Below the pieces are notes generated by a model, which had not been told where the DNA came from, made no database searches, and saw nothing but the letters and a program-made list of their open reading frames with translations. Positions 30,398 to 45,554 of a stretch of DNA of 60,701 nt are shown one piece after another. This DNA comes from Candidatus Gastranaerophilales bacterium. Its GTDB lineage: Bacteria; Cyanobacteriota; Vampirovibrionia; Gastranaerophilales; Gastranaerophilaceae. The stretch is from the NCBI GenBank assembly GCA_944325005.1, contig CALUYO010000009.1:1-60701 (forward strand), given 5' to 3'. How positions within the stretch are numbered: position 1 is the first letter of the stretch; each line of letters opens with the position of its first letter. The position numbers and the translations under genes were made by a program.

Positions 30398-31236
30398 TTA
30401 CCATGGATAATCTTTTGATATTTGCCAGCCGTCATACATAATAAGCAGTGCGCACGTATTTGAGGCGCCATTAGCATATTCCCCACAGAATTTAATCATT
30501 TTATCCCTATCATTGTAGACATAATTGTCAGACAGATCTTCATCTGGATTTCCTGCATTTGAGTAGGCCCATCCTGCCGGATAAAAGTGTCTTCCGGTTT
30601 TCATTCTGTATTCTGAGTCTGATAGCTCATAGTCAAGAAAGAAATAAAACCAGTCGCGTCCGGCCCTGTTGGGACCTTTGCTTCCATTAATATCATATAT
30701 CATGTGTATTTGATTATTATTATTAAAGGTTAAAGCACTGCCATCGGCAAGTATAAGTGTAGGATAAGAATCCTGGTTTGTATTAAATTGTTGGTTTGGA
30801 TTTGTGTCATAGATCTTTGCTCCGTTTAAGTATGGAACCAGAGCTGTATTCATCCATTCTATAAGAGCATCATTATCATATCTTTTGTCCGTTGGAGGTT
30901 GTGTCCAGGTATCATTGGCAATAGACATAGTAACGGCCTGATTCATAACAGAGTAAACTTTTTTTAATTTCGCAACTACTTCTGCTTTCTGGTGATTTGC
31001 AATAAGTGCAGGCATTGTTAATGCCGCAACAATACCTATAATTCCAAGTGTAATTAAAACTTCTGCAAGAGTGAATGCGAATTTGTGATTTTTTAAATAG
31101 CGATGTATAACATCATTATAACCTATTTTGAAATTATTGTAAAGTATAAAATCACATAAATTTTTGAAGTACCCAATCCTCTTATTTAATAAGCATTTTG
31201 TGGGGGGGGGGCAATTCTAAATGCTTGTGTTGCCAT
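30398..31236 (-). CDS. Phase-variable prepilin-like protein, locus 2 (out of frame as assembled)
   Basis: AAGGAGG and ATG at 31236-31234 open a leader MATQAFRI, nearly the same as locus 1, followed by ten C on the coding strand. Ten gives a stop five codons on; eleven gives an open frame of about 279 residues through A-FTLAEVLITLGII to the stop at 30398. The predicted leader is unusually long (about 54 residues) because some 100 bases lie between tract and prepilin helix. The mature part has DINGSKGPNRAGRDWFYF and a Trp-rich end (YDGWQISKDYPW). A start at 31015 would lose the pilin helix. Confidence 0.75.
31115..31143 (-). promoter_or_regulatory. Promoter-like sequence inside the locus 2 leader
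   Basis: On the minus strand TTTACA (31143-31138), a 17-base spacer and TATAAT (31120-31115) lie between the C tract and the prepilin helix, a better match than the upstream promoter. A transcript from here would skip the tract, but no start codon keeping the prepilin helix is evident. Confidence 0.4.
31202..31211. repeat. Ten-G homopolymer tract (locus 2)
   Basis: Ten consecutive G on the plus strand, nine codons into the prepilin leader of locus 2 (C on the coding strand). The surrounding leader is homologous to that of locus 1. Confidence 0.95.
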
Positions 31237-31299: not shown

Positions 31300-31388
31300 G
31301 TTAAATTTCTCCATGAAATCATGGACACAGTTACATTAATATATAAGCACTGACTTTTAAATTTTCGGAAATACGTTATACTAAAAAT

Positions 31389-31835
31389 GTGGTTAAGGTT
31401 CACGCCCGTCAGATGGCAAAATCGTTTACCACAAGGGTTATAGGGGATAGTAGTATGGGATATATTCACTGCTGCGGTGCCTTGCATAAGACCAGAACTT
31501 ATCGTCTTGTGCCTGAGGACAACTTTATGCTGTGCGAATTGGATTATCTGTTGAAATGCCCTGTATGCGGTCATACTGTCGTACAGCTTACAAGAGTTGA
31601 TAATAATGATAATATTTCTATTGTCAGGAAAGTTAACAAAAAAGCAAAAGAATTTATAAAAAAATTAAAAAATTTCATTTTGTATGAAGTTCGCCCGATA
31701 GATTACAGTAAAAGAAGCTATGGAAGATTTTATCTGAATTATAACGAATTTGGTGTTAAAAAAAGATGTTATTCTAATCTCAGAACATTAAAAATCGGAT
31801 TAACAGAAAATAGAGATTTAAAAATCAATCCTTAA
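31389..31835 (+). CDS. Cys-containing small protein at the head of the virion cluster
   Basis: A 148-residue protein with Cys pairs (HCCG near residue 27, CPVCGH near 56) that suggest a zinc ribbon, then a Lys-rich helix and a basic, Tyr-rich end. GTG at 31389 is six bases after a TATACT box (31377-31382) with no ribosome site, so the message may be leaderless. A start at an in-frame ATG further in (about 31413 or 31455) is also possible. Function unknown; DNA binding is a guess. Confidence 0.5.
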   Translation: MVKVHARQMAKSFTTRVIGDSSMGYIHCCGALHKTRTYRLVPEDNFMLCELDYLLKCPVCGHTVVQLTRVDNNDNISIVRKVNKKAKEFIKKLKNFILYEVRPIDYSKRSYGRFYLNYNEFGVKKRCYSNLRTLKIGLTENRDLKINP

Positions 31836-31850
31836 AATTATCTTACTCTC

Positions 31851-31876
31851 AGGGCGGATTACCCGCCCTTTTTTTT
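31851..31876 (+). terminator. Rho-independent terminator
   Basis: AGGGCGG and CCGCCCT flank a short loop, followed by a T run. It separates the first gene from the rest of the virion cluster. Confidence 0.85.
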
Positions 31877-31889
31877 GAACGGAAATATT

Positions 31890-32213
31890 ATGAATGAAAT
31901 TTGCCTATTTTTTTATATGCTGAGTGTAAATAATAAAGTAAAGGAATTAGGAAAAATGGCACTATCTCCAAAGGAACTTCAAGTATTAACTTTGGTTGCA
32001 ATGGGCTATTCCGATAAACAAATCGGAGTCGAATTAAAAATAGCGTATGGGACTGTCAGAAACCATATTGATAAGGCTGTTTTGAAGTTGAATGCCCAGA
32101 ACAGAACGCATGCAGCCATAATTTATAAACTAATGAATAAAGATTGGTTAGAGGATATTTATTATGAAAAGAATAATAGTACACTGGACCGCAGGAGGAT
32201 ATTATCCGACTGA
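31890..32213 (+). CDS. LuxR/GerE-type HTH protein
   Basis: A 107-residue protein whose centre is a LuxR-type helix-turn-helix (LSPKELQVLTLVAMGYSDKQIGVELKIAYGTVRNHIDKAV split over helices 1-4). It has no receiver or ligand domain. Its end overlaps the amidase gene by 50 bases. ATG at 31890 is chosen over an upstream TTG. As the only DNA-binding regulator in the cluster, it may control its expression. Confidence 0.75.
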   Translation: MNEICLFFYMLSVNNKVKELGKMALSPKELQVLTLVAMGYSDKQIGVELKIAYGTVRNHIDKAVLKLNAQNRTHAAIIYKLMNKDWLEDIYYEKNNSTLDRRRILSD

Positions 32214-32667
32214 TTATGAAAAAGAACATTACCATTTTCTTATAGATAAGGATGGAATAGTTTATAGCGGGAAATTTAAACCTGAAGATAATGAATTTTG
32301 CAGAGCAGGAAAATATGCAGCTCATACAGGCGGAGGTAATACCGGCAGTATAGGTGTTTCTATGTGCGCTATGGCTGGGTTTAAAAGCAAGACTAATGCC
32401 GGTAACTATCCAATTTTGAAAAAACAATTTGAAAGTACTATGGAACTCTGTGCAAAACTTACTAATAAATATAATCTTGATATTACCCCGCATACAGTGA
32501 TGACACATTATGAATTTGGTATTAAAAATCCGAGAACTACATCAGCGGGCAAAATTGATATTATTTATCTTCCCCCATACCCGTGGGTGGCAAAAGATGA
32601 AATTGGCAGTTTCATACGTTCAAAAATAAAGTGGTATAAACAAAAACTTTGTGAGTATAAAAGTTAA
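32164..32667 (+). CDS. N-acetylmuramoyl-L-alanine amidase (phage lysin type)
   Basis: A 167-residue Amidase_2/PGRP-fold enzyme. It starts MKRIIVHWTAGG, with the zinc His in VHWTAG, then HYHFLIDKDG, AAHTGGGNTGSIGVSM and THYEFG (second zinc His region). It has no signal peptide or binding domain, so it fits a phage endolysin that needs a holin. It overlaps the LuxR-type gene. The family cleaves the lactyl-amide bond of peptidoglycan. Confidence 0.85.
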   Translation: MKRIIVHWTAGGYYPTDYEKEHYHFLIDKDGIVYSGKFKPEDNEFCRAGKYAAHTGGGNTGSIGVSMCAMAGFKSKTNAGNYPILKKQFESTMELCAKLTNKYNLDITPHTVMTHYEFGIKNPRTTSAGKIDIIYLPPYPWVAKDEIGSFIRSKIKWYKQKLCEYKS

Positions 32668-32705
32668 GGTATAAGGTTTATTATTAAAAACTACAGGAGA
32701 AAACA

Positions 32706-34214
32706 ATGGAAGTCGAATATTACGATCTGTCAGGTGGGATTAATCAGGCTTTAACTAAAACTGAATTAGGGCTTGATACAAAAAAGATTTTCTGGTCAGA
32801 TGCCGAAAATGTTGAAATTCTGCAAAACAGAGGAGTTGTTAAACAGAAAGGAAACTCTTTATTTCTGGAAATGGATGAAGAAATTACCGGAATGGCTGAA
32901 ATAAATTCTTATGATGTCAGCAAACTTGTTATAACAACCGTATCAGGTAAAATTTATATCTATGATGAAAATCATTTAACCAAAACTCAGGTTGATAAAA
33001 CTCTTACCGGTAAAAAACCGGTATTTCTTAATTTTTTAACCGGTATTCTCATAATGACGGAATCAGATGGATTATTTTATATAAAAAACAATTTAACTTA
33101 TGATGTTGTTGACTGCGGATTAAAGGATCTCGAAGGAGAAGTTCTTACCGGTGGGACTATGGCTGTTTATAAGGGAAGAATATGGATAGCAAAAGATGCA
33201 ACTGTATATTATTCAGCACTTGGAACTTATGATGACTTTGAGACGGAAAATGATGCGGGGTATATTAACGAGTTTTACACTGATACGGGCTCAATTACTG
33301 CCTTAAAACCGTATAAAGATTATCTCGCTATTTATAAGAATAATAGTGTTTATCTTTTAACCGGTACAAGTCCTGATGATTTTGCCATAATTTTATTTGC
33401 AAGTAAAGGTGCTGTGGGTGCAAATTCTATTGTTAATGTTGAAAATAAACAGTATTTTTTAAGCAACGGTATCTTTGCTCTTGAGCAGGTCGGTGAATTA
33501 AACCAAATTCAGCTTGGAGGAGAAATTTCTTCTAAAATTAAAAACGAATTTTCTCTTTTTGTGAATTTGGAAAATACTATATGTCTGCATTATGAAGCAA
33601 AAAGCCAGATGTGGTTCTTTATGCCTTATGCGGATGATGAATATTTTCATACAGTCTGGATAAATGATTATGTTAATAAAGCATGGTATAAACGTGTTAT
33701 TCCCCAGGATATTGTTACGGCCTGTGTGTATAAAGGATTAATATATACAGCTGACAAAGATGGAAATATATATAAAGAAGATTTTGGTACGACATTTAAC
33801 GGAAGTGCAATTAAGTTTATGTGGAAGTCCCCGTTTCTGGCACTGTCTAATCCGCATCACAGAAAAATGATTGACGAATTTTATTTTCTTCTTGATACAG
33901 AATATGATAATGATTTTTATTTTTCTGTTTATAAAGATTATGACAGTGAATATTCTGATGATCTCGAACGAATATATTCTATCCATCAGGATCATTTGAT
34001 ATGGGCGGGAGATGATACATCAGACAGTTTGCCATGCCACTGGGCAGAAGAAGATGCTGTGGTGCCTGTCTGGTCGATAAATAAAGATACATTAGAAAAA
34101 GCCGAAATCTCTGAAGCAAATTATGCGGTCCAGCTTTGTGTGTCCGGAGATGGTATTACACAATCATGCGCAATTATCGGACTGCAGTTTAGAGAAGTTT
34201 ATATGGATGATTAA
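32706..34214 (+). CDS. Phage tail/stabilisation structural protein
   Basis: A 502-residue beta-rich protein that begins DLSGGINQALTKTELGLD, then a SDAENVEI..GVVKQKGN pattern seen at the start of podovirus tail-hub or stabilisation proteins. Repeated Y-K-G-x-I and W-x-A motifs suggest a propeller-like fold. AGGAGAAAAC lies before the ATG. The exact role (tail tube, hub or needle anchor) cannot be told from sequence. Confidence 0.6.
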   Translation: MEVEYYDLSGGINQALTKTELGLDTKKIFWSDAENVEILQNRGVVKQKGNSLFLEMDEEITGMAEINSYDVSKLVITTVSGKIYIYDENHLTKTQVDKTLTGKKPVFLNFLTGILIMTESDGLFYIKNNLTYDVVDCGLKDLEGEVLTGGTMAVYKGRIWIAKDATVYYSALGTYDDFETENDAGYINEFYTDTGSITALKPYKDYLAIYKNNSVYLLTGTSPDDFAIILFASKGAVGANSIVNVENKQYFLSNGIFALEQVGELNQIQLGGEISSKIKNEFSLFVNLENTICLHYEAKSQMWFFMPYADDEYFHTVWINDYVNKAWYKRVIPQDIVTACVYKGLIYTADKDGNIYKEDFGTTFNGSAIKFMWKSPFLALSNPHHRKMIDEFYFLLDTEYDNDFYFSVYKDYDSEYSDDLERIYSIHQDHLIWAGDDTSDSLPCHWAEEDAVVPVWSINKDTLEKAEISEANYAVQLCVSGDGITQSCAIIGLQFREVYMDD

Positions 34215-34271
34215 TTTTTGAATACCGCCGCTCAAGTTTTATGTAGTTAGAAAAAGAAAGGAAACAAAAAA

Positions 34272-35174
34272 ATGACTGACAATGCTTATTCTGCATTTAT
34301 CCCTGAAATATGGAGCCAGAAGTTAAATTACATGCTTTCAAAAGAATGTGTAATGCTCCAGTGTGTGAACAGAAATTGGGAAGGTGAAATTAAAAATCAG
34401 GGTGATAAAGTTAAAATTATTACTCCTGCAGATGTTGCAATTTCAACTTTAAGTTCTTCAAATATTACTTATTCGGAATTGGAACCTACTTCTCAAGAAC
34501 TTTTAATTGATCAAAAGAAATTTTTTGCCTTTAAAATCAATGATGTCGCACAGGTTCAGGCTAATGCTGATATTATGGAAGCTCATTTGAAAAATGCTAA
34601 GAAAGCTATTGAAGAAGTTCAGGATGCATACATTTTATCTCTGCATACCGGCGTAGATTCTGCAAATATTGTAGGAAGTGAGGATGCTGCTGTTACTCTT
34701 GATAAAACAACAGTTTATTCAAAATTCGTAGAACTTGCATTATGTTTAAAAAATTCAAATGCAGTAACTTCCGGAGTAAGACCATGGGTTGTTATTAACC
34801 CTACAATTGAATCTTATCTGCTTCAAAGTTCTGAGTTCATTGGTGCACATAATGTTGCTGATGAAACTTTAAGAGAAGGTGCTATTGGCAGAATTGCAGG
34901 CATGGATGTTCTCGTAAGCACTAATTTAACTGATGTATCCGGTAAATATTACGTGCTTGCCGGAACTAATGAAGCTATTACATTTGCTTCTCAATTGGCT
35001 AAAATTGAAAGTTTAAGAGATAAAGACAGTTTCTCTGATCTTGTTAGAGGTTTATATCTGTATGGCGCAAAAGTTGTTCAGCCGAAAGCTCTCGCAAAAA
35101 TGGTTGTTACAGCACCCTCTGCACCTTCAGTTCCAACAGAACCCGAGGACGATTTAGAAGATACAGGAGCATAG
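34272..35174 (+). CDS. Major capsid protein (HK97 fold, podovirus type)
   Basis: A 300-residue coat protein. It starts with AFIPEIWSQKLNYMLSKECV, then NRNWEGEIKNQGDKVKI and the IDQKKFFAFKINDVAQVQA spine region typical of P22/T7-like coat proteins; the second half has PWVVINPTIESYLL and GAIGRIAGMDVLVS. A Pro/Ser/Asp-rich tail follows. GAAAGGAAAC before the ATG fits high expression. An attenuator-like structure lies just after the stop. Confidence 0.85.
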   Translation: MTDNAYSAFIPEIWSQKLNYMLSKECVMLQCVNRNWEGEIKNQGDKVKIITPADVAISTLSSSNITYSELEPTSQELLIDQKKFFAFKINDVAQVQANADIMEAHLKNAKKAIEEVQDAYILSLHTGVDSANIVGSEDAAVTLDKTTVYSKFVELALCLKNSNAVTSGVRPWVVINPTIESYLLQSSEFIGAHNVADETLREGAIGRIAGMDVLVSTNLTDVSGKYYVLAGTNEAITFASQLAKIESLRDKDSFSDLVRGLYLYGAKVVQPKALAKMVVTAPSAPSVPTEPEDDLEDTGA

Positions 35175-35181
35175 TTCTGTC

Positions 35182-35234
35182 TTTTACCCCGGTAATGCAT
35201 CTCCGGTAAAAATTTTTTATTCCGGAGGTGCATT
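35182..35234 (+). terminator. Attenuator-like alternative hairpins after the capsid gene
   Basis: Structure A: TTTTACC..GG with CCGGTAAAA, then ATTTTTT, a terminator eight bases past the capsid stop. Structure B: AATGCATCTCCGG (35194-35206) with CCGGAGGTGCATT (35222-35234), 12 of 13 pairs plus one G-T. The two share the CTCCGG arm and cannot form together, so this can end or pass transcription, setting capsid to downstream protein ratio. Confidence 0.55.
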
Positions 35235-35259
35235 GTTTAAAAAAATAATGAGGTAGTTT

Positions 35260-35493
35260 ATGTTTGATAAGTTAAAAGAAACAATAAAAGAGCTTGCAAA
35301 AACCGCTGTTTTTAAAGCGGAAGAAGCTCTGGGAAGCAAAAAAGGGCAGGAAAAGAAGGAAATGGCAATTAAATATGTTATTGATAAAATTCCTTTGCCT
35401 GCTTTTTTAAAGCCGGTAATTTCAATTTTTTTGTCATCTTTTATAGATGACGCAGTTGAACTTGCGGTTGAATATATGAAAAGTGAGGAATAA
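35260..35493 (+). CDS. Small amphipathic protein in virion cluster, possibly holin-like
   Basis: A 77-residue protein with a charged N-terminal helix, a Lys-rich loop and a C-terminal hydrophobic stretch (LPAFLKPVISIFLSSFIDDAVELAV), a pattern similar to LLH-type phage holins. It follows the attenuator and precedes the scaffold-like gene. The holin role is a guess based on layout. Confidence 0.5.
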   Translation: MFDKLKETIKELAKTAVFKAEEALGSKKGQEKKEMAIKYVIDKIPLPAFLKPVISIFLSSFIDDAVELAVEYMKSEE

Positions 35494-35497
35494 TGTT

Positions 35498-36121
35498 ATG
35501 AATGGACAAAATATACAAAATATTTCATCCTATGCCGGTAATCAGCAAGCGGCGCAAGGAGTTCAACAGCCTTTGAATAACAATGCAGAAACATTTAAAC
35601 AGATGGCTGTTAATGATTTAAAAACGATAAAAAATCTTGTACAAACAGGTGTTATGACCCAGGAACAAGGACAAAATTTAATGAATTATGTTACTCAAAA
35701 GGCGTTTGAAAAGTATACATTAAGTCAACAGAACGGTCAGATACCTGCTGCAGGACAAATGCAAAACAGTGTTCCGCCTGAATTTTTTAATAGAGACGGA
35801 AGAATTGATGTTTTTGATTATTTAAGGAACTCAAATGTCGCATTTGATGAGGATGAACTCTCTAAAATATCTGCACTTATAGAAAAAATAGAAAATACGG
35901 CAGTTGAAAGATATTTGAGAGAATTGCAGCACGAAAAAACATTAAACAGCGAAAATGAAAGCGCAAAACAGAGATTGCGTGCAAATGCACAAAACTCCGG
36001 TTATGACGGCTTAAATAATTTGGTTTTTACTCGTGAACAAATCGGCAAAATGAGCGGCGCAGAATTTGCTAGACACGAACGTGCGATTATGGACCAATTA
36101 AAAAAAGGTCTTATAAAATAG
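35498..36121 (+). CDS. Scaffold-like phage protein
   Basis: A 207-residue protein, Gln/Asn-rich at the N-terminus and helical and charged elsewhere (EDELSKISALIEKIENTAVERYLRE), with the ending HERAIMDQLKKGLIK. A helical, hydrophilic protein next to the capsid gene is what a scaffold looks like, including a basic C-terminal helix. ATG at 35498 has AGGAAT upstream; a GTG at 35483 overlaps the previous gene. A terminator follows. Confidence 0.5.
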   Translation: MNGQNIQNISSYAGNQQAAQGVQQPLNNNAETFKQMAVNDLKTIKNLVQTGVMTQEQGQNLMNYVTQKAFEKYTLSQQNGQIPAAGQMQNSVPPEFFNRDGRIDVFDYLRNSNVAFDEDELSKISALIEKIENTAVERYLRELQHEKTLNSENESAKQRLRANAQNSGYDGLNNLVFTREQIGKMSGAEFARHERAIMDQLKKGLIK

Positions 36122-36146
36122 CAATATTCAAAAAATCTTTTAGGGA

Positions 36147-36176
36147 AAAACAGTCTTATTTTAAGACTGTTTTTTC
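36147..36176 (+). terminator. Rho-independent terminator
   Basis: ACAGTCTTA and TAAGACTGT flank a 3-base loop, with a T run after. Confidence 0.85.
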
Positions 36177-36199
36177 TTAAAAGCTTGGAAAGGAAGTTT

Positions 36200-36838
36200 A
36201 TGAACTATTTAGAACTTATAAATAAATGTCTTGTAGAATTAAATTATAAACAGGTTAATGCATTTTCGGAGCTTACAAAAAATGATCATAAGAAATTGAA
36301 AAATATTTTAAACATATTAAATTCGGAAATTTGCGGGTTTGACAGATGGAGTTTTCTTCTAAGAAAAGCGGAACTTGTTTTACCAGAAAATACAGGAGAA
36401 ATCGAAAATTCAATTGACGGCAGAATTGAAACCTTAATTGCAGATGGAGCTAAGTTTGATTATTATGACGATTTTGAAACGTTTTTTGTTAACTCTCAAC
36501 CTCAAAATACGTATAGTTTGTTTAATGATAAAATTTTGCTTCCGATTTTTAATAAAGACAAAAATATAGAAATTTTGTACTATACAAAAAATTGTGCAAA
36601 GAGTTCTGAAGGTGTTGAAAAATATTCAATGGAGTATGCAGACGATTCTTCTCTTATTCCTGATCCGTTTGCAGAGCCTTTGCTGGTGTATGGCGCCTGT
36701 ATGCGTTTGAAAGGCAACCCCCAGCATGTTCGTTTTAACTACTGGTACAGTATGTATAAGGAGGCTCTTGCAAACATGCGTGCAAGAATTTCAGCAAGTA
36801 TGGATGAGGCACCCTCAGTAAAATTGCATAGAAGGTAA
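36200..36838 (+). CDS. Phage head-tail adaptor / tail accessory protein
   Basis: A 212-residue protein of the P22 gp4 type: an N-terminal helix (LELINKCLVELNYKQV), KKLKNILNILNSEICGFDRWSFLLRKAEL and the C-terminal PLLVYGACMRLKGNPQHVRFNYWYSMYKEALANMR helix set, quoted in parts. Such proteins dock below the portal. ATG at 36200 has GGAAAGGAAG upstream; a TTG at 36185 overlaps that site. Confidence 0.65.
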   Translation: MNYLELINKCLVELNYKQVNAFSELTKNDHKKLKNILNILNSEICGFDRWSFLLRKAELVLPENTGEIENSIDGRIETLIADGAKFDYYDDFETFFVNSQPQNTYSLFNDKILLPIFNKDKNIEILYYTKNCAKSSEGVEKYSMEYADDSSLIPDPFAEPLLVYGACMRLKGNPQHVRFNYWYSMYKEALANMRARISASMDEAPSVKLHRR

Positions 36839-36885
36839 GAAGGTGTATTTCAATATTTTTTACAGGTTTGTGAAACTTAGTGCGT

Positions 36886-36927
36886 CTACATACGTAGCAT
36901 AAAAAAAACAGGAAGTTTAAAATTCAT
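36886..36927 (-). CDS. 13-codon micro-ORF (MNFKLPVFFMLRM) antisense in the virion cluster
   Basis: On the minus strand a strong promoter (37006-36978) leads to AGGAGG (36938-36933), a 5-base gap and ATG at 36927, encoding a hydrophobic 13-residue peptide ending at TAG. The reading frame runs through a terminator hairpin and its T run (36941-36901). It could be a leader peptide, a type I-like toxic peptide, or a short regulatory RNA whose coding is chance. The signals are strong; the function is unknown. Confidence 0.4.
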   Translation of the reverse strand: MNFKLPVFFMLRM

Positions 36928-36941
36928 TTTCCCCTCCTGTT
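36901..36941 (-). terminator. Minus-strand terminator overlapping the micro-ORF
   Basis: AACAGGA and TCCTGTT flank a 21-base loop, followed on the minus strand by eight T. Confidence 0.55.
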
Positions 36942-36977
36942 AAGATTTACACTAGCCGAAATATAAATAGCATGATT

Positions 36978-37006
36978 ATTATACAATTTTTTTTCAAAAA
37001 TTTCAA
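36978..37006 (-). promoter_or_regulatory. Strong minus-strand promoter in the virion cluster
   Basis: TTGAAA (37006-37001), exactly 17 bases, TATAAT (36983-36978) on the minus strand. Transcription would start near 36971 and give an RNA of about 70 bases up to the T run. Confidence 0.6.
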
Positions 37007-37057
37007 ATTATACAAAGATTTGTAAAGAAAAATACATAATTTATACCATACAGGACG

Positions 37058-37492
37058 ATGAAACAACTATCAAAACAACAAAAGAAATTTGTTACAGAAT
37101 ATATAAAATCTCTTAACGGAGAGCTTTCTGCCAGAAATGCAGGTTATAAATCTGCAGATCTGAAGGAAACCGCATCCAGACTTTTGTCGGAAGATTTAAT
37201 TATTAAAGAAATAAAATTTCAGTTAAAAAATCAAATATCTTCTTTAAGAGTCAATAAAGGATATGTGGTTCAAAAACTTTTACAAATTGCGGAATTTTCT
37301 CTTGAGGAAGAAGACATTCTTGATAAAGAGGGATGTGTCACTGGCAAAAAGAAACTCCGTGACACATCTGCAGGTTTGAAGGCTTTGGAAAGTCTGTGCA
37401 AATACTTGGGTTTCAGTTCCTCGCAGGATGAGGCTGAATATAAATCCGCAAAAATTATAACAATTTCAAACCTTGATGACAGCAAAATTTAA
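37058..37492 (+). CDS. terS: Terminase small subunit
   Basis: A 144-residue Terminase_2-type protein: LSKQQKKFVTEYIKSLNGELSARNAGYKS is the usual N-terminal HTH, then ETASRLLSEDLIIKEI and GYVVQKLLQIAEFS. It recognises the packaging site for TerL. It lies five genes and 4.7 kb before terL, an unusual separation for phages, where the two are normally adjacent. Confidence 0.8.
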   Translation: MKQLSKQQKKFVTEYIKSLNGELSARNAGYKSADLKETASRLLSEDLIIKEIKFQLKNQISSLRVNKGYVVQKLLQIAEFSLEEEDILDKEGCVTGKKKLRDTSAGLKALESLCKYLGFSSSQDEAEYKSAKIITISNLDDSKI

Positions 37493-37507
37493 AAAAGGAG
37501 AATTTTT

Positions 37508-37858
37508 ATGAAAAACAGTAATGCAGAAGAGAGACTTTTGAATAACGCCTCTCTGGAAGATCTTATAAAAATGAAGATTGAAAAAGAGTTTATGGAAGAT
37601 ATGAAAAAATCGAAAAATAAAACTATTCCTAAAATTTATACTAATATAAAAAATGTTCCTCCTGACAAAATTTTCTCTAAATATGCCATATTCAAATATT
37701 TTAACCGTCATACAAAATGCGAAACTTATGTTAACGGAGTTCAGGCAGACGGAATACTCGGGATTCAAAACAGCATAAGAGAAAAGATGCTTAAAGGTGA
37801 ATTAAATGCCTTTACTACCGATGATGCTTATGTGAAATTTGAGAAAGCGGTATTTTAA
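37508..37858 (+). CDS. Hypothetical protein in virion cluster
   Basis: A 116-residue charged, helical protein (Lys and Glu-rich head, then NVPPDKIFSKYAIFKYFNRHTKCETYVNG in part). A perfect AAGGAG ribosome site is present. The stop overlaps the next ATG by one base (TAATG), so it is coupled to the GNAT gene. It could bind DNA or the terminase; no family recognised. Confidence 0.55.
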   Translation: MKNSNAEERLLNNASLEDLIKMKIEKEFMEDMKKSKNKTIPKIYTNIKNVPPDKIFSKYAIFKYFNRHTKCETYVNGVQADGILGIQNSIREKMLKGELNAFTTDDAYVKFEKAVF

Positions 37859-38352
37859 TGGCTGAATTTAGAGATCCTTTTGATAGTCCTGCTTTTTTTG
37901 AGCAGGCTTTATTTTTATACACAAAATATTTGAAGTATCTTGAAGATGATTATGCATTGAACGGATTAACGGTTTACGATTATTTTTATAATCTTGTACA
38001 GAGAACTGCTCCTTTCTTTTTTGTCATAGTAGAAAGAGATACCGTAAGCGGTTTTGTATATCTTGATAATATTATCGGGAACTGTAATATGTTTCACAGT
38101 GCTGAGCTTACGACCTGTTTTGACAGGCGATTTTGGGGCGACTACACAAAAGAATGCGCTAAATTCTTTATAAATTACTGTTTTGAGAATTACGGCTTAA
38201 AAAAGATTAAGGCGCTTGTTTATCCGGATAATAATCGAGTGAAAACGCTTTTAAAGAAATCAGGTTTTGTAAAAGAAGCATTGCTCAAAAATGAAACTTT
38301 AAGAAATGGAAAGTTACAGGATATAGAAATATATTCGGTATTTAAAAAGTAG
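37858..38352 (+). CDS. GNAT-family acetyltransferase in virion cluster
   Basis: A 164-residue GNAT protein: FFFVIVERDTVSGFVYLDNII, FWGDYTKECAKFFINYCFENYGLKKIKALVYPDNNRVKTLLKKSGF (here split) follows the RimJ/phage GNAT pattern with the N-x-R-x-x-x-L-L-x-K-x-G-F ending. Such genes are common beside phage portal genes, but the substrate is unknown. It is coupled to the preceding gene. Confidence 0.75.
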   Translation: MAEFRDPFDSPAFFEQALFLYTKYLKYLEDDYALNGLTVYDYFYNLVQRTAPFFFVIVERDTVSGFVYLDNIIGNCNMFHSAELTTCFDRRFWGDYTKECAKFFINYCFENYGLKKIKALVYPDNNRVKTLLKKSGFVKEALLKNETLRNGKLQDIEIYSVFKK

Positions 38353-38383
38353 GTCTTAAAACAATTAGTAAAGGTGGTAAAAA

Positions 38384-40042
38384 ATGAAGATAGAAACAGA
38401 AGATTTAACACAGAAACTTTCTGATACGGAAGAGAAATTTTTATCTGCAAGTATAATAGATAAATATGACAGATTTAATGAACAGCGAAGCGCACAGCTC
38501 ACAGATATAAAGCTTGTTAGAGACGCAATATATAATTGCGATATTCCAAAAATAAACGGCTGGGATAACAGAGTAGAACTTCCTGATATTTATGAACTTG
38601 CTCAGACATTAAAATCACATATAAGTGAGAATTTGTATTCACACCCGGACGCAATGTTTGATGTATCCGGAACTACTCCGCAGACTCAAAGTTACGCAAA
38701 CAGGCAGAAAGCTATGCTTGTAAATACTTTTGAACAAATGAATATTGAAAATGAAATTGAGAAGGTTATTGACGGAATAGTTGAAACAGGCGAAGCTACT
38801 CTTTTTGTCGGCTGGGAAACAAAGATTAAATCTATAAGACGTGCTAAAACTATTGAAGAGCAAATTCTTACACCTGATAAAAAAAGTTTTACAATTGATG
38901 AAAAGATTATTTACGATAATGCAAAGGTTAAATATATCAAATCTGAAGACTTTGTTTTTGACAAATATAATCGAGATAATTGGGATAAGTGTGCAAAAAT
39001 TTACAGAACCTATTCAACAATAGATGAACTTTATTCAGATAAAGCAAATAACCTTTTGGATGACAGGAAGTTGGAAATATTGAAAGGAGTGGTGGCTTCA
39101 AGAAAATCGCAAAATAATGATGAAAACGCTGTGGAAGGCAAAAAAGTAGAAATTTTGGAATTCTGGGGAGATATTGAGTTATCAGACGGAACACTTTTGA
39201 AAAATTGGCTGATAGTTGTTGCAGCAAGACGTGAAATAATACGTTTTGAAAGCAATCCGTTTGTGATAAATCCGTTTATTCACGCAAATATTATAGAATC
39301 TCCTGTTACAGGCAGAGGGATTTCTCCTCTAAGAGTAGCCTTAATTCTGAATAGTCTTGCCTCAACTATATTGAATAAGCAGATAGATGCGCTTACTTTA
39401 ATGATGAATCCTCCTTATCTTGCTCCGAAAGGCTGTTTTAAAGGACAGCAGGATGTAAAACCCGGAAAAATTATAGAATACGATGCGGCATTAATGCCTA
39501 CAGCACCGACTCCGTTGTCATTTGACAAAGCTATGGTCGGCTGGGATTTCTTAAATTATTTTAAATCAACAATTGAAAGTGCAACGGGAATTTTTAAGAA
39601 TATGGCAGGAAACCTTCAGTCAGCAGAACGTACCGCAACGGAACTTAATTATTCTGTAAGCGGTCAGGAAGCACGATTAAATATGATGTTAGATGCAATC
39701 AACAGAAAAATAATTGTTCCTATGGTAGAAAAAACTGCTGAAATAATTTCGTATTTCAAACTTGGGAAAGAGCTTATCGGCGTTAATGACAGGGGTAAAA
39801 CAAGCTTTATGGAAATTGATGATAATGTCAGAAACGCAAACTATGTTTATCGATATGGAGATAGAAGGGCATCATTTGAGAGAAAATCCCGCTTAAAAGA
39901 GTTGTTTGAAGTAGTGAGTTCATTTGCTCAAGTGCCTGAGGTTGAGGAGAAAATTGATTGGCTTGAGTGTTTTAAATTTGCACTTGAACAATACGGGATA
40001 GAGAACGCAAATAATTTTTTACTTGAAGAGAATAAATCATAG
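38384..40042 (+). CDS. Phage portal protein (podovirus type)
   Basis: A 552-residue protein with the layout of short-tailed phage portals: a charged N-terminal wing (DKYDRFNEQRSAQLTDIK), the crown/clip region, VTGRGISPLRVALILNSL and TEL-rich stem-helix region (SAERTATELNYSVSGQEARL), and a helical C-terminus. AAAGGTGG precedes the ATG. It would form the dodecameric ring for DNA packaging. Confidence 0.75.
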   Translation: MKIETEDLTQKLSDTEEKFLSASIIDKYDRFNEQRSAQLTDIKLVRDAIYNCDIPKINGWDNRVELPDIYELAQTLKSHISENLYSHPDAMFDVSGTTPQTQSYANRQKAMLVNTFEQMNIENEIEKVIDGIVETGEATLFVGWETKIKSIRRAKTIEEQILTPDKKSFTIDEKIIYDNAKVKYIKSEDFVFDKYNRDNWDKCAKIYRTYSTIDELYSDKANNLLDDRKLEILKGVVASRKSQNNDENAVEGKKVEILEFWGDIELSDGTLLKNWLIVVAARREIIRFESNPFVINPFIHANIIESPVTGRGISPLRVALILNSLASTILNKQIDALTLMMNPPYLAPKGCFKGQQDVKPGKIIEYDAALMPTAPTPLSFDKAMVGWDFLNYFKSTIESATGIFKNMAGNLQSAERTATELNYSVSGQEARLNMMLDAINRKIIVPMVEKTAEIISYFKLGKELIGVNDRGKTSFMEIDDNVRNANYVYRYGDRRASFERKSRLKELFEVVSSFAQVPEVEEKIDWLECFKFALEQYGIENANNFLLEENKS

Positions 40043-40064
40043 TGCCGCATTAGCGGCACTTTCT
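40041..40064 (+). terminator. Rho-independent terminator after portal
   Basis: AGTGCCGC and GCGGCACT around an ATTA loop, then TTCT. The stem begins at the portal stop codon. Confidence 0.7.
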
Positions 40065-40127
40065 CCCTTAAATAAACACGACCAAAAGTATTATATACAA
40101 ATAAGAGTTTTTTAGTAGAATATAATT

Positions 40128-40586
40128 ATGAAAAAAATAATTTTAGTAATAATGTTAATACTCTTTCAAATACCTGTTTTCGGTGAAGATATTCCTCCAC
40201 GCGGAGTAGAGATGACAAAGGAAACTAATCCAATATTCTGGAGCTATTTGGAGGATTATAGTTGTGCATTAAAAGAAGCGTTTGAAGATGCAAAGATTTT
40301 TCACCTTCGGGGTTGGGGAGCTGCTTACGAATTTATAATAACCCGTAACGGTGAAATTAAAGACTTGAAGGGTTCTGTTTTCCAAAATGATTACTATAAC
40401 AAAAAAGTAAAAGATGTAATATTATCCGTAAAGCCCTCCCCGTTTTATGAAGGTATGAATGCAGAAGATATGCTGTTTGATGTTTATTTAGGTTATCAAA
40501 GTTATGAAGATATAGATATATATAATGGATTTCATATTAAATATAATAGAGATATTTTTGGAATAAGTATAGATCTAGACAAATAA
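40128..40586 (+). CDS. Secreted TonB-C-like protein, copy 1
   Basis: A 152-residue exported protein: signal peptide with cleavage after about residue 19 (VFG-ED), then a small alpha/beta domain where FIITRNGEIKDLKGSVFQND and KKVKDVILSVKPSPF resemble the TonB C-terminal fold. Copy 2 follows at 40615. It sits between portal and lipase genes as a cargo (moron) gene rather than a virion part. Function unknown. Confidence 0.6.
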   Translation: MKKIILVIMLILFQIPVFGEDIPPRGVEMTKETNPIFWSYLEDYSCALKEAFEDAKIFHLRGWGAAYEFIITRNGEIKDLKGSVFQNDYYNKKVKDVILSVKPSPFYEGMNAEDMLFDVYLGYQSYEDIDIYNGFHIKYNRDIFGISIDLDK

Positions 40587-40614
40587 AATTAAGAAATAGT
40601 TTGAAAGCATGATA

Positions 40615-41073
40615 ATGAAGAAACTAATTTTAGTAATAATGTTAATACTCTTTCAAATACCTGTTTTCGGTGAAGATATTCCTCCACGCGGAGTAGAGAT
40701 GACAAAGGAAACTAATCCTATATTCTGGAGTTATTTGGAAGATTATAGTATAGCATTAAAAGAAGCCTTTGAAGATGCAAAAATATTTCACCTTCGGGGT
40801 TGGGGTGCCGCTTATGAATTTATCTTAACGCGTAACGGTGAAATTAAAGACTTGAAGGGTTCTGTCTTTCAAAATGATTACTATGACAGAAAAGTAAAAG
40901 ATGTAATATTATCAGTAAAGCCCTCCCCGTTTTATGAAGGTATGAATGCTGAAGATATGCTGTTTAGAGTTTATTTAGGTTATCAAAATTATGATGATAT
41001 CTATATACATAGTGGATTTCATCTAAGATATGACCGAAAAATTTTTGGAATAAGTATAGATTTAGATAAATAA
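40615..41073 (+). CDS. Secreted TonB-C-like protein, copy 2
   Basis: The second copy of the preceding gene, 152 residues, with the same signal peptide and core. Changes cluster near the end (from about residue 118: D to R, D to Y, N to S, D to K), which suggests that the C-terminal face diversifies. The ATG at 40615 matches copy 1; an upstream ATG at 40609 is two codons earlier. A terminator follows. Confidence 0.6.
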   Translation: MKKLILVIMLILFQIPVFGEDIPPRGVEMTKETNPIFWSYLEDYSIALKEAFEDAKIFHLRGWGAAYEFILTRNGEIKDLKGSVFQNDYYDRKVKDVILSVKPSPFYEGMNAEDMLFRVYLGYQNYDDIYIHSGFHLRYDRKIFGISIDLDK

Positions 41074-41103
41074 TTAAGAATAGCTGAGAAGTATGATTTT
41101 TAC

Positions 41104-41131
41104 AAACCGCTGAGAACAGCGGTTTTATTTT
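41104..41131 (+). terminator. Rho-independent terminator
   Basis: AAACCGCTG and CAGCGGTTT with a GAGAA-type loop, then TTATTTT. Confidence 0.8.
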
Positions 41132-41160
41132 AATGTGAAAAAATAGAAAGGAAGGTAAAC

Positions 41161-42222
41161 ATGAACAAACATGCAATGGCTAATGAATACAAAATTTTAT
41201 GCTCGGAAGCAAACAAAATGGTGAAAATGAAAGATGGTGCCACTACATCAAACGGTTGGACAAAGATTGACGGTGATTATGACCGACGAAGCAATTTTAA
41301 AGCTGTTCTTTATGAAAAAGATGGACAATATGCTATTTGCTTTGTGGGAACAGACAGGTTCAGTGCAAAAGACTGGGGTGCAAATGCTAAAATGGCTTTG
41401 ACAGGTGAAAGTAAACAAATTAAACTAGCTCAAGAATTTGCAGAGAATATGCTAGATAAGCCATATGGCTTAAATTCTAAAAACACTGTTTCAATCGGAC
41501 ATTCTGAAGGCGGTACAGAGGCAACGGTTGTTGGTGTTCAATATGGACTTAAGACTACAACTTTTAACGCTTATGGTGTCGGCGGAGATTATGTTGATAA
41601 GAATAAAAATTATGACAATCTGGTGACAAATTACAGAGATCCGCATGATCCGGTTTCAAAACTAAAAGAAAATGTTGGAATAACTTATATTATACCTAAT
41701 ACCCAGAACTGGTTTATGGCAAAAACTCCGTTCGGCTCTGTTCAGTCCCATGGTATTGATAATATGGGAGATTGTACACAGTCTGTTCCGTTGAACGAGT
41801 ATAAAAAATCACATCCGTTCTTTATTAATAAAATTTCTGATGTTGATATTACAAGACAGGACATCGCAAATATGGAGCCTGACTTATTCAAAATATATGA
41901 AAGCGAGATTGATAATCGTCTTGCAAATAACCAAATAGGTGATTTGCAGCAGGAAAATACTCCTAACCCGTTTGGGAATTTGGGGAAAGAAACTTTTGAT
42001 GAAGCCGGTGGATTAATCGGAAATAATAATTATTCAGAGTTTAATAAGTATCTTATGGCAATGGCTTCTTCTCCAATGCAAGAACGTAAGCAAAATTCAG
42101 AAAACTCCGGAGAAAGCAGAGAGTCCGGGAAATCCAAATCTTCATCAGGAAAAAGTTCAGGCAGCTCATCAGAAGGTAAATGGGTTACTATTAACGGAAA
42201 TCACGTTTTAATTAAAGATTAG
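41161..42222 (+). CDS. Virion-associated lipase-like hydrolase
   Basis: A 353-residue protein with an alpha/beta hydrolase core: YAICFVGTDRFSAKDWGAN (oxyanion region) and the nucleophile elbow SIGHSEGGTEA (Ser about 115), with a likely acid in DPHDPVSK and His in QSHGIDNM. After a Ser/Gly/Lys-rich linker the end is GKWVTINGNHVLIKD, a short module often found at the C-termini of phage head-morphogenesis and MuF-type proteins. It may be carried in the virion. It has no signal peptide. Activity is inferred. Confidence 0.65.
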   Translation: MNKHAMANEYKILCSEANKMVKMKDGATTSNGWTKIDGDYDRRSNFKAVLYEKDGQYAICFVGTDRFSAKDWGANAKMALTGESKQIKLAQEFAENMLDKPYGLNSKNTVSIGHSEGGTEATVVGVQYGLKTTTFNAYGVGGDYVDKNKNYDNLVTNYRDPHDPVSKLKENVGITYIIPNTQNWFMAKTPFGSVQSHGIDNMGDCTQSVPLNEYKKSHPFFINKISDVDITRQDIANMEPDLFKIYESEIDNRLANNQIGDLQQENTPNPFGNLGKETFDEAGGLIGNNNYSEFNKYLMAMASSPMQERKQNSENSGESRESGKSKSSSGKSSGSSSEGKWVTINGNHVLIKD

Positions 42223-42228
42223 GGAATT

Positions 42229-43518
42229 ATGTTATACAAATTATTAAAAGCTCAGAGGGAATTTTTAGAAATTCCCCATGATTATACATTGGATGTTGCG
42301 GTTTATCAGGGTGGTTACGGTTCGGGAAAAACTTTTGCAGGTTCGCTTCTGGGAATTTTGCTTGCATTAAAATTCCCTGGCGTCCGCGGACTTGTAGGCG
42401 CCCAGACTTATACTCTTGTAAGAGATACGACATTACAAACTTACTTTGAACATTTAGAAAATTTCGGTTTTGTTGAAGGTTTAGACTACGAATGGTCATC
42501 AACTTTGCAGAAACTTTCTTTTAAAAATGGCTCAGAAATTCTTTTCAGACATTTTGACGAACCGAATAAATTAAAGTCTTTAAATCTGGGCTTTGTAGAA
42601 ATTGAGGAAATGTCTGATATTCCGTATGACACTTTTAAAATGCTTCTCGGGCGTATGAGGCAGAGGGTTAAAAAAGTATGGAAAAATTTCACATACCGTA
42701 TTTTCGGGCATACAAATCCAGAGATGCAAAGAGGGTGGATTTACAAAACTTTTGTGGAAAATCCGGCTCCGAATTACAGGCTGATTACGGCTCCGACAAC
42801 CCAGAATATTTATTTGCCCGAAGGCTTTTGTGATGAATTGAAAAAACTTTATGATGAACAGTATTACAATATTTTTGTTCTTGCTCAGAACGGGGAATAC
42901 AATAACGGACTTGTAATAAAAGATTTTACTGATGCAAATATAAAAGACATTACATATCAGCCGGATATGGATTTGCATATTTCTTGCGACTTTAATGTTG
43001 ATCCTATGTGCTGGGTTTTTGCGCATAAAACTGATGATAAAGTTTTTTATTTTGACGAAATTGCAATGGAAAATACAACAACCTCAAAAGCCTGTGATGA
43101 ATTTTACAGACGATACCCTAATCATAAAGGAAAAGTAATTGTTAACGGCGATGCATCAGGCGATAACAGAAGCTGTACAAGCGAATATACAAATTATGTA
43201 ATAATCAAGAAAAAGCTTCTGCAATACGGCTATGATGTAGAAATTCAGATAAAAGCATTTAATCCGCCTATAAAAAACAGAATTATGGCATTTAATGCAA
43301 AAGTCCGTTCCGCTGACGGCGAAATTTGTCTGTTTGTGGATAAAAAATGTGAGAAACTTCTTTATAACATTTATAACCTTAAATACAAAGAAGGTTCTTC
43401 CAAAATAGATATTCCGACTTACCAGCAGATTAAGCAGTCAAAAGAACTTAAATTTTTATCTCACCCTATGGATGCGGCATCATATCTTGTTGATTTTTAT
43501 TGGCCGATAACGCTTTAA
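42229..43518 (+). CDS. terL: Terminase large subunit
   Basis: A 429-residue packaging motor. Walker A GGYGSGKT is at residues 28-35, Walker B LGFVEIEEMSD near 120, then coupling GHTNPEM and a nuclease domain with SCDFNVDPMCWVFAH and NGDASGDNRSC acidic residues. Both ATPase and nuclease look intact. It follows the lipase gene by 6 bases. The position at the 3' end of the cluster, far from terS, is unusual. Confidence 0.88.
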   Translation: MLYKLLKAQREFLEIPHDYTLDVAVYQGGYGSGKTFAGSLLGILLALKFPGVRGLVGAQTYTLVRDTTLQTYFEHLENFGFVEGLDYEWSSTLQKLSFKNGSEILFRHFDEPNKLKSLNLGFVEIEEMSDIPYDTFKMLLGRMRQRVKKVWKNFTYRIFGHTNPEMQRGWIYKTFVENPAPNYRLITAPTTQNIYLPEGFCDELKKLYDEQYYNIFVLAQNGEYNNGLVIKDFTDANIKDITYQPDMDLHISCDFNVDPMCWVFAHKTDDKVFYFDEIAMENTTTSKACDEFYRRYPNHKGKVIVNGDASGDNRSCTSEYTNYVIIKKKLLQYGYDVEIQIKAFNPPIKNRIMAFNAKVRSADGEICLFVDKKCEKLLYNIYNLKYKEGSSKIDIPTYQQIKQSKELKFLSHPMDAASYLVDFYWPITL

Positions 43519-43530
43519 AGAAAGGAAATT

Positions 43531-43761
43531 ATGGAAAAAATTATAGAATATTCCCCAATAATAATTGTTGTTTTAATGTTTTTTGTGCAGCAGAAGATTT
43601 TCGTAACTCCGGAACAGCTAGAAAAGAAACATCGGGAAATTGTGGAAGAAATAGAAGAAAAATTTGTTACAATTCATAGTTTTGTAGATTTAAAAGATCA
43701 GTTTTCTGAGGTAAAAGATAAAATTGACAAAATGTATGATCTTTTAATAGATTTGAAGTAA
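43531..43761 (+). CDS. Small membrane/coiled-coil protein, possible spanin or holin
   Basis: A 76-residue protein with one N-terminal membrane helix (SPIIIVVLMFFVQQ) followed by a charged coiled coil to the end. This is the layout of phage i-spanins and of some small phage membrane proteins. It follows terL by 12 bases with AAAGGAAA upstream and is the last gene of the cluster. Confidence 0.6.
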   Translation: MEKIIEYSPIIIVVLMFFVQQKIFVTPEQLEKKHREIVEEIEEKFVTIHSFVDLKDQFSEVKDKIDKMYDLLIDLK

Positions 43762-43877: not shown

Positions 43878-45554
43878 ATGGGATTGGCAGCTTCACAAGC
43901 AAGATTTTTGGCCATAACATCAAGAAAAATGAATTGCGAGTTTCAATCCATGCAAATTGCTCAGCAAAAACTTTCTGTTACGCGTGATTTACAAAGAGCG
44001 TCTGAGGAGTATCAAAGTTCTTTAAATGCTACAAAACTTGTGTGGGATACTGTTGATGATGATACATACGATTTATCTTATGACTTGTTGATGCAGCCTT
44101 CTGCTCTTAACGAGTATGATCCGTATTTGATTACTGATTCTCAGGGCAAAATTGTTTTATCTACAAGTATGTTTGAGGCTGCGGTTGCTGCCAAAGTTAT
44201 AGATGCAAAAACCGGCGACCCGATAGCGAAGCGCTCTATGGGAAATGATGATTCTACAACGGATGGTTCACGTAACGCATTTTTATATCAGCTTGGTGTC
44301 AGAAATCAGGCTGATGCATCTACTATTGAAGCAATAAAAGCATTAGGTGAAAAAGGTTATACAGCTTCAGGTGTTGGCGGAGAGATTATTGATAAAACAC
44401 TTGCCAACTCCTTTACAACAAATGCATTTATTAGTTATTTGAAAAATGCGACTTATGCAGAAGATGTGACCGGCTCAGACGGCTCAGTCGAACACAGTGC
44501 AGGTGATGCTATTTATGGTATCAATCTTGTCGATCTGATTGGATCTGATAAGATATGTACAACAACATCTCCTGATAAAAATGCTGATGCAGGTAAAGTT
44601 ATAATTACTAAAAACGGTGCGGCTATTACAGATACAAATGAATTATCTAAACTTACTCTTGGAGATATTGTGGACGGCAGTTATGAAATGTCCGGAGTAA
44701 TGAGCGCCTCAGATTTATCTGCTATTGCAGAGAAGATTTTAGGAAATATGGCAAATACATTAGGTATGAACAATGCCGCTAATGTTCAAGGTTTGAACGT
44801 GGATCAGGAGTCTCAAGATGCTTTGAACAATGCCTATGAATTTACAAAAGCATTGTTAAATGCTACTCAGACTTCATCTTCCGGAGGGGAAAATACATAT
44901 AATTCGGTGAAAAATGCAATCTCTACGGCACAGGGGACAAATAGTATTGTTCAAGGAACAAACAATATTTCTTCAATAAGTTTGTCAAATATGTTAAAGT
45001 CTTATCTCACATATTTTGCGATTTCTATGGAAGGGTATGAAAACGGCTTATATATCGATAGTGATTCAGCAAAAGACAGCAGCTATGTCACAGATGAAAT
45101 TGCATATAACTTTATTATAAAAAATGATAATGCTATGACAGAACAGGATGCATTAAATGCTGATTTTTATAATATGCTGTATAACCAGTTATGTATGAAC
45201 GGTGCTTGTACAGATACGATGAAGCAGCAGCAGGTAACAGATTCGGATTATTTAAATTTAGCATTGAAAAACGGGCAGTTGTTTTTATCAACACTCAATA
45301 ATGACGGGTATTATTATCAGGGACATTATACCGCCAGCGGGCATATCGCGGAAGTTCAGGACGAAGATGCAATTGCTCAGGCTGAGGCTGAATATAACGT
45401 CAAGAAAAACCAGTTAAACTATAAAGAACAATCACTTGAATTAAAGATGAAAAATATTGATACTGAACTTTCAGCATTAACAACTGAATATGACACTGTT
45501 AAAAACTTAATAAGCAAAAACGTAGAAAAAGTGTTCACGATGTTTAGTACATAA
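43878..45554 (+). CDS. Flagellar-axial-like / type III-like secreted protein
   Basis: A 558-residue protein without signal peptide. The N-terminus (MGLAASQARFLAITSRKM) and a following coiled coil (about 20-55), together with a C-terminal coiled coil (NQLNYKEQSLELKMKNIDTE and onward), recall the paired D0/D1 ends of hook, rod and flagellin-family proteins. The middle is Ser/Thr/Asp/Asn-rich and likely surface exposed. AAAGGAAAG precedes the ATG. It lies between the virion cluster and secA. Export by a FliI/FlhA-type system is an inference. Confidence 0.5.
   Translation: MGLAASQARFLAITSRKMNCEFQSMQIAQQKLSVTRDLQRASEEYQSSLNATKLVWDTVDDDTYDLSYDLLMQPSALNEYDPYLITDSQGKIVLSTSMFEAAVAAKVIDAKTGDPIAKRSMGNDDSTTDGSRNAFLYQLGVRNQADASTIEAIKALGEKGYTASGVGGEIIDKTLANSFTTNAFISYLKNATYAEDVTGSDGSVEHSAGDAIYGINLVDLIGSDKICTTTSPDKNADAGKVIITKNGAAITDTNELSKLTLGDIVDGSYEMSGVMSASDLSAIAEKILGNMANTLGMNNAANVQGLNVDQESQDALNNAYEFTKALLNATQTSSSGGENTYNSVKNAISTAQGTNSIVQGTNNISSISLSNMLKSYLTYFAISMEGYENGLYIDSDSAKDSSYVTDEIAYNFIIKNDNAMTEQDALNADFYNMLYNQLCMNGACTDTMKQQQVTDSDYLNLALKNGQLFLSTLNNDGYYYQGHYTASGHIAEVQDEDAIAQAEAEYNVKKNQLNYKEQSLELKMKNIDTELSALTTEYDTVKNLISKNVEKVFTMFST

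Follow-up and report, generated by a model that had tools for sequence, protein, structure and literature searches.

The window analyzed here, a stretch of 60,701 nucleotides from Candidatus Gastranaerophilales contig CALUYO010000009.1, carries a compact cluster of virion genes, with all main open reading frames (ORFs) on the forward strand between positions 31389 and 43761. We regard it as probable that this cluster descends from a podovirus and has been domesticated into a vertically inherited viriform of a Candidatus Gastranaerophilales family, one that resembles a gene transfer agent (GTA), packages DNA and carries antibacterial cargo. We rate at about even the chances of capsid-based effector delivery, in which a domesticated phage head acts as a secretion machine and the products of effector/immunity islands, within the cluster and orphaned around the genome, are recruited through natural imitation of the scaffold's coat-binding end. 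A first-pass annotation, made from the sequence of the window, had recognized the virion cluster and proposed a GTA-like or otherwise kept particle; the conserved, once-per-genome occurrence of the cluster, the monophyly of host genera in its tree and the purifying selection on it support that interpretation.

The capsid gene was found at 73-100% identity in 62 of the 146 genomes of the family, representing 17 genera, with one canonical copy in each (genomes were counted by hand from the search listing, and in one the capsid gene is split over two contigs). Gene order was identical in all 32 loci taken from whole genomes. All ten core genes were present in 28 of these; the remaining four are without one or two core genes, and three of the four lie on stretches ending at a contig end. 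The neighborhood is common to several genera, with a FliI-type ATPase, a ZIP transporter and a radical SAM gene on one side and a 558-amino-acid (558-aa) gene and SecA on the other; in genera g7 and g9 it is different. The first-pass annotation had suggested checking relatives for the same site and intact genes, and the cluster indeed often lies between the same host genes, with unvarying order and core frames largely open. It had also named a clean empty site in close relatives as evidence to look for, and none was found: every same-genus genome among the matches listed has the cluster or TerL (7 in the capsid-gene search, 22 in another). In the cluster-less genus g2 the site is rearranged, with the 558-aa gene and two neighbors reordered, which neither supports nor refutes the proposal. 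In the cluster-less genome G041, an ORF beside the 558-aa gene (locus L302, 10406-10777) resembles (34-39%) one that in cluster-bearing loci lies between the adaptor and TerS genes, and is possibly a remnant.

In a tree of concatenated cluster genes, six of six testable genera are monophyletic with 100% support, and the same six are monophyletic in an RpoB tree, one of them at 77% support; the two trees disagree within a genus once, at genome G138. Cluster and RpoB distances correlate (Mantel r 0.744, with none of 5000 permutations as high), as they do between eight genera (r 0.653, 79 of 5000). The RpoB tree of 58 genomes limits the canonical cluster to one clade of 41, and absences inside that clade are read as losses. 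Inheritance of the cluster in the family is older than the genera themselves.

Selection on the cluster, which the first-pass annotation had proposed to measure by the ratio of nonsynonymous to synonymous substitution rates (dN/dS), is strongly purifying, with values far below 1. Median dN/dS is 0.018 for TerL, 0.027 for TerS, 0.034 for the portal, 0.037 for the capsid protein and 0.041 for the tail nozzle, next to 0.012-0.034 for the host genes FliI, SecA, YchF and ZIP (SecA 0.024, FliI 0.012). Several pairs are near dS saturation; the three closest pairs, which are the safest, are also far below 1. TerL is as constrained as SecA, and within the cluster the constraint on TerS and TerL is among the strongest.

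Gene calls came from ORF finding in the window followed by PHROGs, Pfam and NCBIfam scans (Table 1). By these assignments the cluster encodes an intact podovirus-type particle: the terminase subunits TerS and TerL, portal, capsid, probable scaffold, adaptor, nozzle, holin and amidase. AlphaFold models of the adaptor and of the 502-aa nozzle protein (33 sequences each) were compared by Foldseek with solved structures. The adaptor model, with a predicted local distance difference test score (pLDDT) of 90.5, is closest to 9k09_d from the Cyanophage A4 portal-tail complex (E 7.5e-10) and also matches T7 gp11 (7box); the nozzle model (pLDDT 83) is closest to 9nwi_Y from Pseudomonas phage Pa223 (E 1e-17) and also matches P22 gp10 (8eap_D, E 2e-13) and T7 gp12 (7boy_s). 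A sequence search of solved structures gave a weak match for the adaptor alone, and the matter was settled by fold comparison. The portal is about 20-23% identical to the portals of cyanopodoviruses Pf-WMP3 and A-4L. From the adaptor and nozzle folds together with this cyanopodovirus-like portal, a short-tailed particle is therefore predicted. The Walker A motif of TerL is kept in 35 of 35 relatives.

A new finding is the stretch between the portal and terL genes (window 40128-42222), which, compared across loci, is a swappable cassette of putative effector and candidate immunity genes, ranging from a few bases to more than 3 kb. The N-terminal domains of the cargo are lipase/Mbeg1-like, GH108 muramidase, DUF6973 and PBECR nuclease (barnase/EndoU-like). 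The C-terminal tag of the window's lipase, GKWVTINGNHVLIKD, recurs on other cargo from the same slot with different N-terminal domains, and unrelated phages carry this tag (WVTING) on proteins of MuF and effector type; we found no report of the motif in the literature. The 212-aa protein is probably the scaffold. It ends in FTREQIGKMSGAEFAK.E.AIM.QLRKGLI, and its C-terminal 31 residues (36026-36118) constitute a segment common to the cargo. A profile built from 47 scaffold tails was searched against 19,964 six-frame ORFs, with shuffled ORFs as control; it matched 97 scaffold ORFs and 31 other ORFs, and shuffled ORFs yielded one match, at E 0.5. Non-scaffold matches with E <0.02 are located in cluster gaps or beside the cluster, and a homologue of the lipase at another locus (L134) has an additional good copy of the segment. 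We predict that the scaffold-like segment carried by many effectors is a capsid-loading signal.

Small genes with a hydrophobic N-terminus adjoin the effectors and are matched to them by effector family: the lipase adjoins the family of window 40128-41073, DUF6973 adjoins another family, and GH108 in several loci adjoins LprI lysozyme-inhibitor-like proteins (Pfam E 3e-9 and 1e-9). The lipase and DUF6973 partners are assigned by adjacency alone, and the pairing of a muramidase with a putative lysozyme inhibitor is the strongest single hint of immunity. For the lipase variants of genera g13, g17 and g22, no partner of the known families was detected.

The segment also occurs away from the cluster. 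It is found at two unlinked sites in the window's own genome, on contigs 1 and 27, and many relatives have unlinked segment genes, often in two copies, often with a membrane or secreted-type partner, and often with one of two C-terminal tags, WVTINGNHV or YV.PYTRSDGTEV.GYYR. At a threshold of E 1e-5, with counts made by hand, at least one unlinked copy is present in 25 of 34 genomes with the canonical cluster versus none of 30 without a canonical or mid-diverged cluster (Fisher p 2e-10, kinship not corrected). Such contrasts are seen within genera as well: G096 and G116 lack both TerL and the segment, whereas their congener G038 has the cluster, and G025 lacks both, whereas its congener G087 has both.

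Under the reading we prefer, a domesticated particle that packages DNA and carries cargo, the host and the cluster's LuxR-type protein would control production of a short-tailed particle made of capsid, scaffold, portal, adaptor and nozzle. TerS and TerL would fill it with DNA, mainly chromosomal because there is no replication or excision module, and effectors from the portal-terL slot, from other cluster gaps and from unlinked islands would enter the procapsid by means of the segment that imitates the coat-binding C-terminus of the scaffold. The producer cell would then be lysed by holin and amidase; on contact the particle would deliver DNA together with effectors of the lipase, muramidase, nuclease and DUF6973 kinds, from which kin would be protected by secreted or membrane immunity proteins encoded next to them. 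Several observations weigh against this scheme. No tail fiber or receptor-binding gene was recognized, and in genus g17 and a relative (L098, L152, L183) the nozzle gene is missing from its usual place, the gap from amidase to capsid being just 114-155 bp. The portal-terL slot is empty in many loci, which makes cargo optional at those. The 212-aa protein has no family match, and its probable role as scaffold is assigned by its position and C-terminal block; the segment in the window's lipase is degenerate (E 0.003, with a second-round profile); and candidate immunity partners other than LprI match no family. Particle, packaged DNA and delivery are predicted here from genes, and the host is uncultured.

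A plain GTA would move random host DNA between kin, its cargo being envelope-opening entry aids or passengers and toxin delivery no part of its function. The constraint on TerS and TerL, the slot empty in so many loci, and the ability that lipase and muramidase could have to act on a recipient envelope all suit this account, which we nevertheless consider unlikely: the effectors include a barnase/EndoU-like nuclease, dedicated partner genes accompany them, the lysozyme inhibitor beside the muramidase among these, and cargo is repeated in unlinked islands. We find it more doubtful that the cluster makes a headed bacteriocin like PBSX, which would kill relatives and whose packaged DNA would not be productively transferred. 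Effector/immunity-like pairs would be expected of such a weapon, and PBSX itself packages 13.4 kb chromosomal pieces (PMC12946183); yet the constraint on TerS and TerL matches that on housekeeping genes, and such upkeep is not obviously required where no DNA is to be transferred.

To a defective or decaying prophage, which would explain the lack of integrase, repressor and replication genes, we give almost no credence; the first-pass annotation had already argued against decay, and we reject it because, across 17 genera, the genes remain intact, keep their synteny and evolve under strong purifying selection. Also rejected, as improbable, is a phage satellite or capsid-encoding chromosomal island, or a mobile phage borrowing integration and replication functions, although the cluster has packaging and capsid genes of its own and a same-family relative is a full prophage in genome G101. 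The first-pass annotation had left a satellite as one option and had pointed to an integrase or att repeats just outside the cluster as things to look for. Among the matches listed, which leave out the weakest, 25 cluster-bearing genomes have no integrase closer to the cluster than 50 kb; the six PF00589 integrases of the window's genome are all on other contigs; and no exact direct repeat of at least 14 nt occurs between 29.3-31.45 kb and 43.5-46.0 kb of the window. Neither the integrase, repressor, replication genes and att repeats of a temperate prophage nor the integrase and mobility between relatives of a capsid-encoding satellite were found, and no integration or replication module accompanies the cluster. 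It is vertically inherited at the genus level, and its high-identity IMG/VR matches are contigs of the same cluster, several with host flanks.

Genome G101 has, besides the canonical cluster on contig 16, a related and complete temperate prophage of about 36 kb on contig 1, with a virion module 64% (TerL), 42% (capsid) and 29% (portal) identical to the cluster. The prophage carries an integrase, a CI-like repressor, an exonuclease and a DnaD-like helicase loader, while the G101 cluster stays stripped; it shows what a complete relative of the cluster looks like. Diverged clusters with altered gene order occur in genera g8, g36 and g37 and on one IMG/VR contig (L116, L117, L118, L114, L115, L060); with capsid at 44-62% and TerL at 64-67%, they may represent a domesticated sister lineage. 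Genera g24 and g40 have a further related element, usually in single copy (L120, L309, L312, L313), in a clade without the canonical cluster (TerL about 57%, 76-aa gene 36-45% identical). In the 273.9 kb record 'Microcystis phage MaAM05' (L314, MW495066.1 205000-225000), a virion cluster with a capsid 42%, a nozzle 30%, a portal 22% and a 76-aa gene 27% identical is surrounded by lepA, phosphoglucomutase, tRNA-Arg and a proton pump; the record looks like chromosomal DNA of a bacterium that contains another compact virion cluster and was labelled a phage by mistake.

Most of the cluster anatomy in the first-pass annotation stands. The scans find no integrase, repressor or replication gene in the cluster, and the LuxR/GerE-type protein is the only regulator found there and the only candidate to regulate the cluster. 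Main ORFs are intact, with core frames open in the relatives checked except for one amidase with an in-frame stop (G125). The distance from the end of terS to the start of terL is 4.7 kb as described, a large part of it because the cargo cassette sits between them; the three ORFs of that cassette are variable cargo rather than virion genes. The lysin had been placed first, and this is corrected by the 148-aa ORF and LuxR-type gene that precede it. GC and third-position GC of the cluster are close to those of the rest of the window, and an Rfam scan gave no match in the region. Pilin-like proteins are encoded on both sides of the cluster (window 30398-31015 and 48448-49086, the second with a FTLAEVLVTLGIIGVV leader), and a FliI/YscN-type ATPase at 27131-28477. 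The 558-aa protein at 43878-45554, with a conserved MGLAASQARFL-type N-terminus, was rejected as a cluster member, coming from a large host family with 6-33 matches per genome.

Table 1. Genes of the virion cluster, with window coordinates and basis of assignment.
Product	Position	Strand	Evidence or remark
148-aa protein, CxxC-type motif	31389..31835	+	No confident family; conserved first gene of cluster in many genera
LuxR/GerE-type HTH regulator, 112 aa	31875..32213	+	Pfam PF00196 E 4e-15; kept in most loci
N-acetylmuramoyl-L-alanine amidase (endolysin)	32164..32667	+	phrog_5867 E 6e-36; PF01510 E 1.5e-13
Short-tail nozzle protein (P22 gp10 / T7 gp12 type), 502 aa	32706..34214	+	AlphaFold and Foldseek; PHROGs virion structural protein E 6e-19
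Major capsid protein	34272..35174	+	phrog_267 (major head protein) E 5e-49; weak N4-gp56 model match
Holin	35260..35493	+	phrog_6918 E 7e-7
Probable scaffolding protein, 212 aa	35483..36121	+	Position after capsid gene and conserved C-terminal block
Head-tail adaptor (T7 gp11 type)	36200..36838	+	AlphaFold and Foldseek
Terminase small subunit TerS	37058..37492	+	phrog_51 E 5e-20
116-aa conserved protein, no assigned function	37508..37858	+	
GNAT acetyltransferase-like protein	37858..38352	+	phrog_1249 E 4e-8; kept in cluster
Portal, podovirus type	38384..40042	+	phrog_332 (head-tail adaptor/portal) E 4e-31
Candidate immunity protein 1, signal-peptide-like N-terminus	40128..40586	+	Tandem paralogue of 40609..41073; adjoins same lipase family in other loci; no family match
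Candidate immunity protein 2, signal-peptide-like N-terminus	40609..41073	+	Paralogue of 40128..40586; adjoins same lipase family elsewhere; no Pfam match
Putative cargo effector, lipase/Mbeg1-like alpha/beta hydrolase (GHSEGG)	41161..42222	+	Degenerate scaffold-like segment near 41848; C-terminal tag GKWVTINGNHVLIKD
Terminase large subunit TerL, intact Walker A	42229..43518	+	phrog_2 E 1e-36
76-aa membrane-anchored coiled-coil-like protein	43531..43761	+	Conserved last gene of cluster

Among known kept particles, PBSX of Bacillus subtilis kills relatives, as the cluster's particle may do, but is a larger, long-tailed element, and RcGTA is siphovirus-like, unlike the cluster; PBSX is not known to have a scaffold-like cargo label. 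Three features in the definition of GTAs (PMC9662315) are readable from genomes, and all are found here: particle proteins derived from caudoviricetes; full endogenization, often in several loci, seen as a single chromosomal copy, shared neighborhoods and unlinked cargo islands; and vertical inheritance with host co-diversification, with the one within-genus disagreement at G138. We write "GTA-like" rather than "GTA" because the three other features, a content of mostly random host DNA, a head that cannot hold the element's own genome and delivery of DNA to other cells, need experiments. Endogenized caudoviricete genes and vertical co-diversification with the host are shared with RcGTA and other alphaproteobacterial GTAs (PMC9662315), and PBSX is likewise a kept phage-like particle. 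The closest described parallel is FpGTA of Faecalibacterium prausnitzii (PMC12946183), which also has a gut host and is a compact, podovirus-like operon of about 10.5 kb with TerS, TerL, portal, scaffold and capsid, genus-wide and termed GTA-like. Unlike the cluster, FpGTA is in a different phylum and has its lysis and tail-fiber genes in a second operon, and it is not known to carry effector/immunity cargo. Packaging and transfer of host DNA have been shown experimentally for alphaproteobacterial GTAs (PMC9662315), and particles and packaged DNA have been observed for FpGTA (PMC12946183), whereas the cluster is known from its genes.

The cargo has parallels of its own. In MuF polymorphic toxins and polyvalent proteins (PMC5512222), effector domains including PBECR are predicted to travel inside phage heads and be injected, and MuF-type phage proteins carry the WVTING tag as the cluster's cargo does. 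Those toxins are encoded by phages or mobile elements as MuF or portal fusions, in contrast to the vertically inherited locus and scaffold-shared segment described here; no MuF family match was found in the cargo proteins scanned, and the segment resembles a scaffold instead. The C-terminal helix-turn-helix of the P22 scaffold is essential for assembly, and engineered cargo fused to that scaffold has been loaded into capsids (PMC9962691); such loading is artificial, whereas the arrangement in the cluster appears natural and its loading is predicted. Crassviruses (PMC10172136) are, like the predicted particle, short-tailed, from the gut, and carry proteins in the capsid, but their cargo serves viral infection and has no immunity pairs.

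We found no study of a Gastranaerophilales GTA or prophage in the open-access literature. The cluster would add one more, independent case of a phage particle domesticated by its host, here among the non-photosynthetic relatives of cyanobacteria that live in the gut, and retained in 17 genera. Should the cargo reading be right, a kept phage head would serve both gene packaging and antibacterial protein delivery, the scaffold-like segment would be a natural capsid-loading label, and the reason that hosts keep such particles would become testable: non-kin killing, gene exchange, or both.

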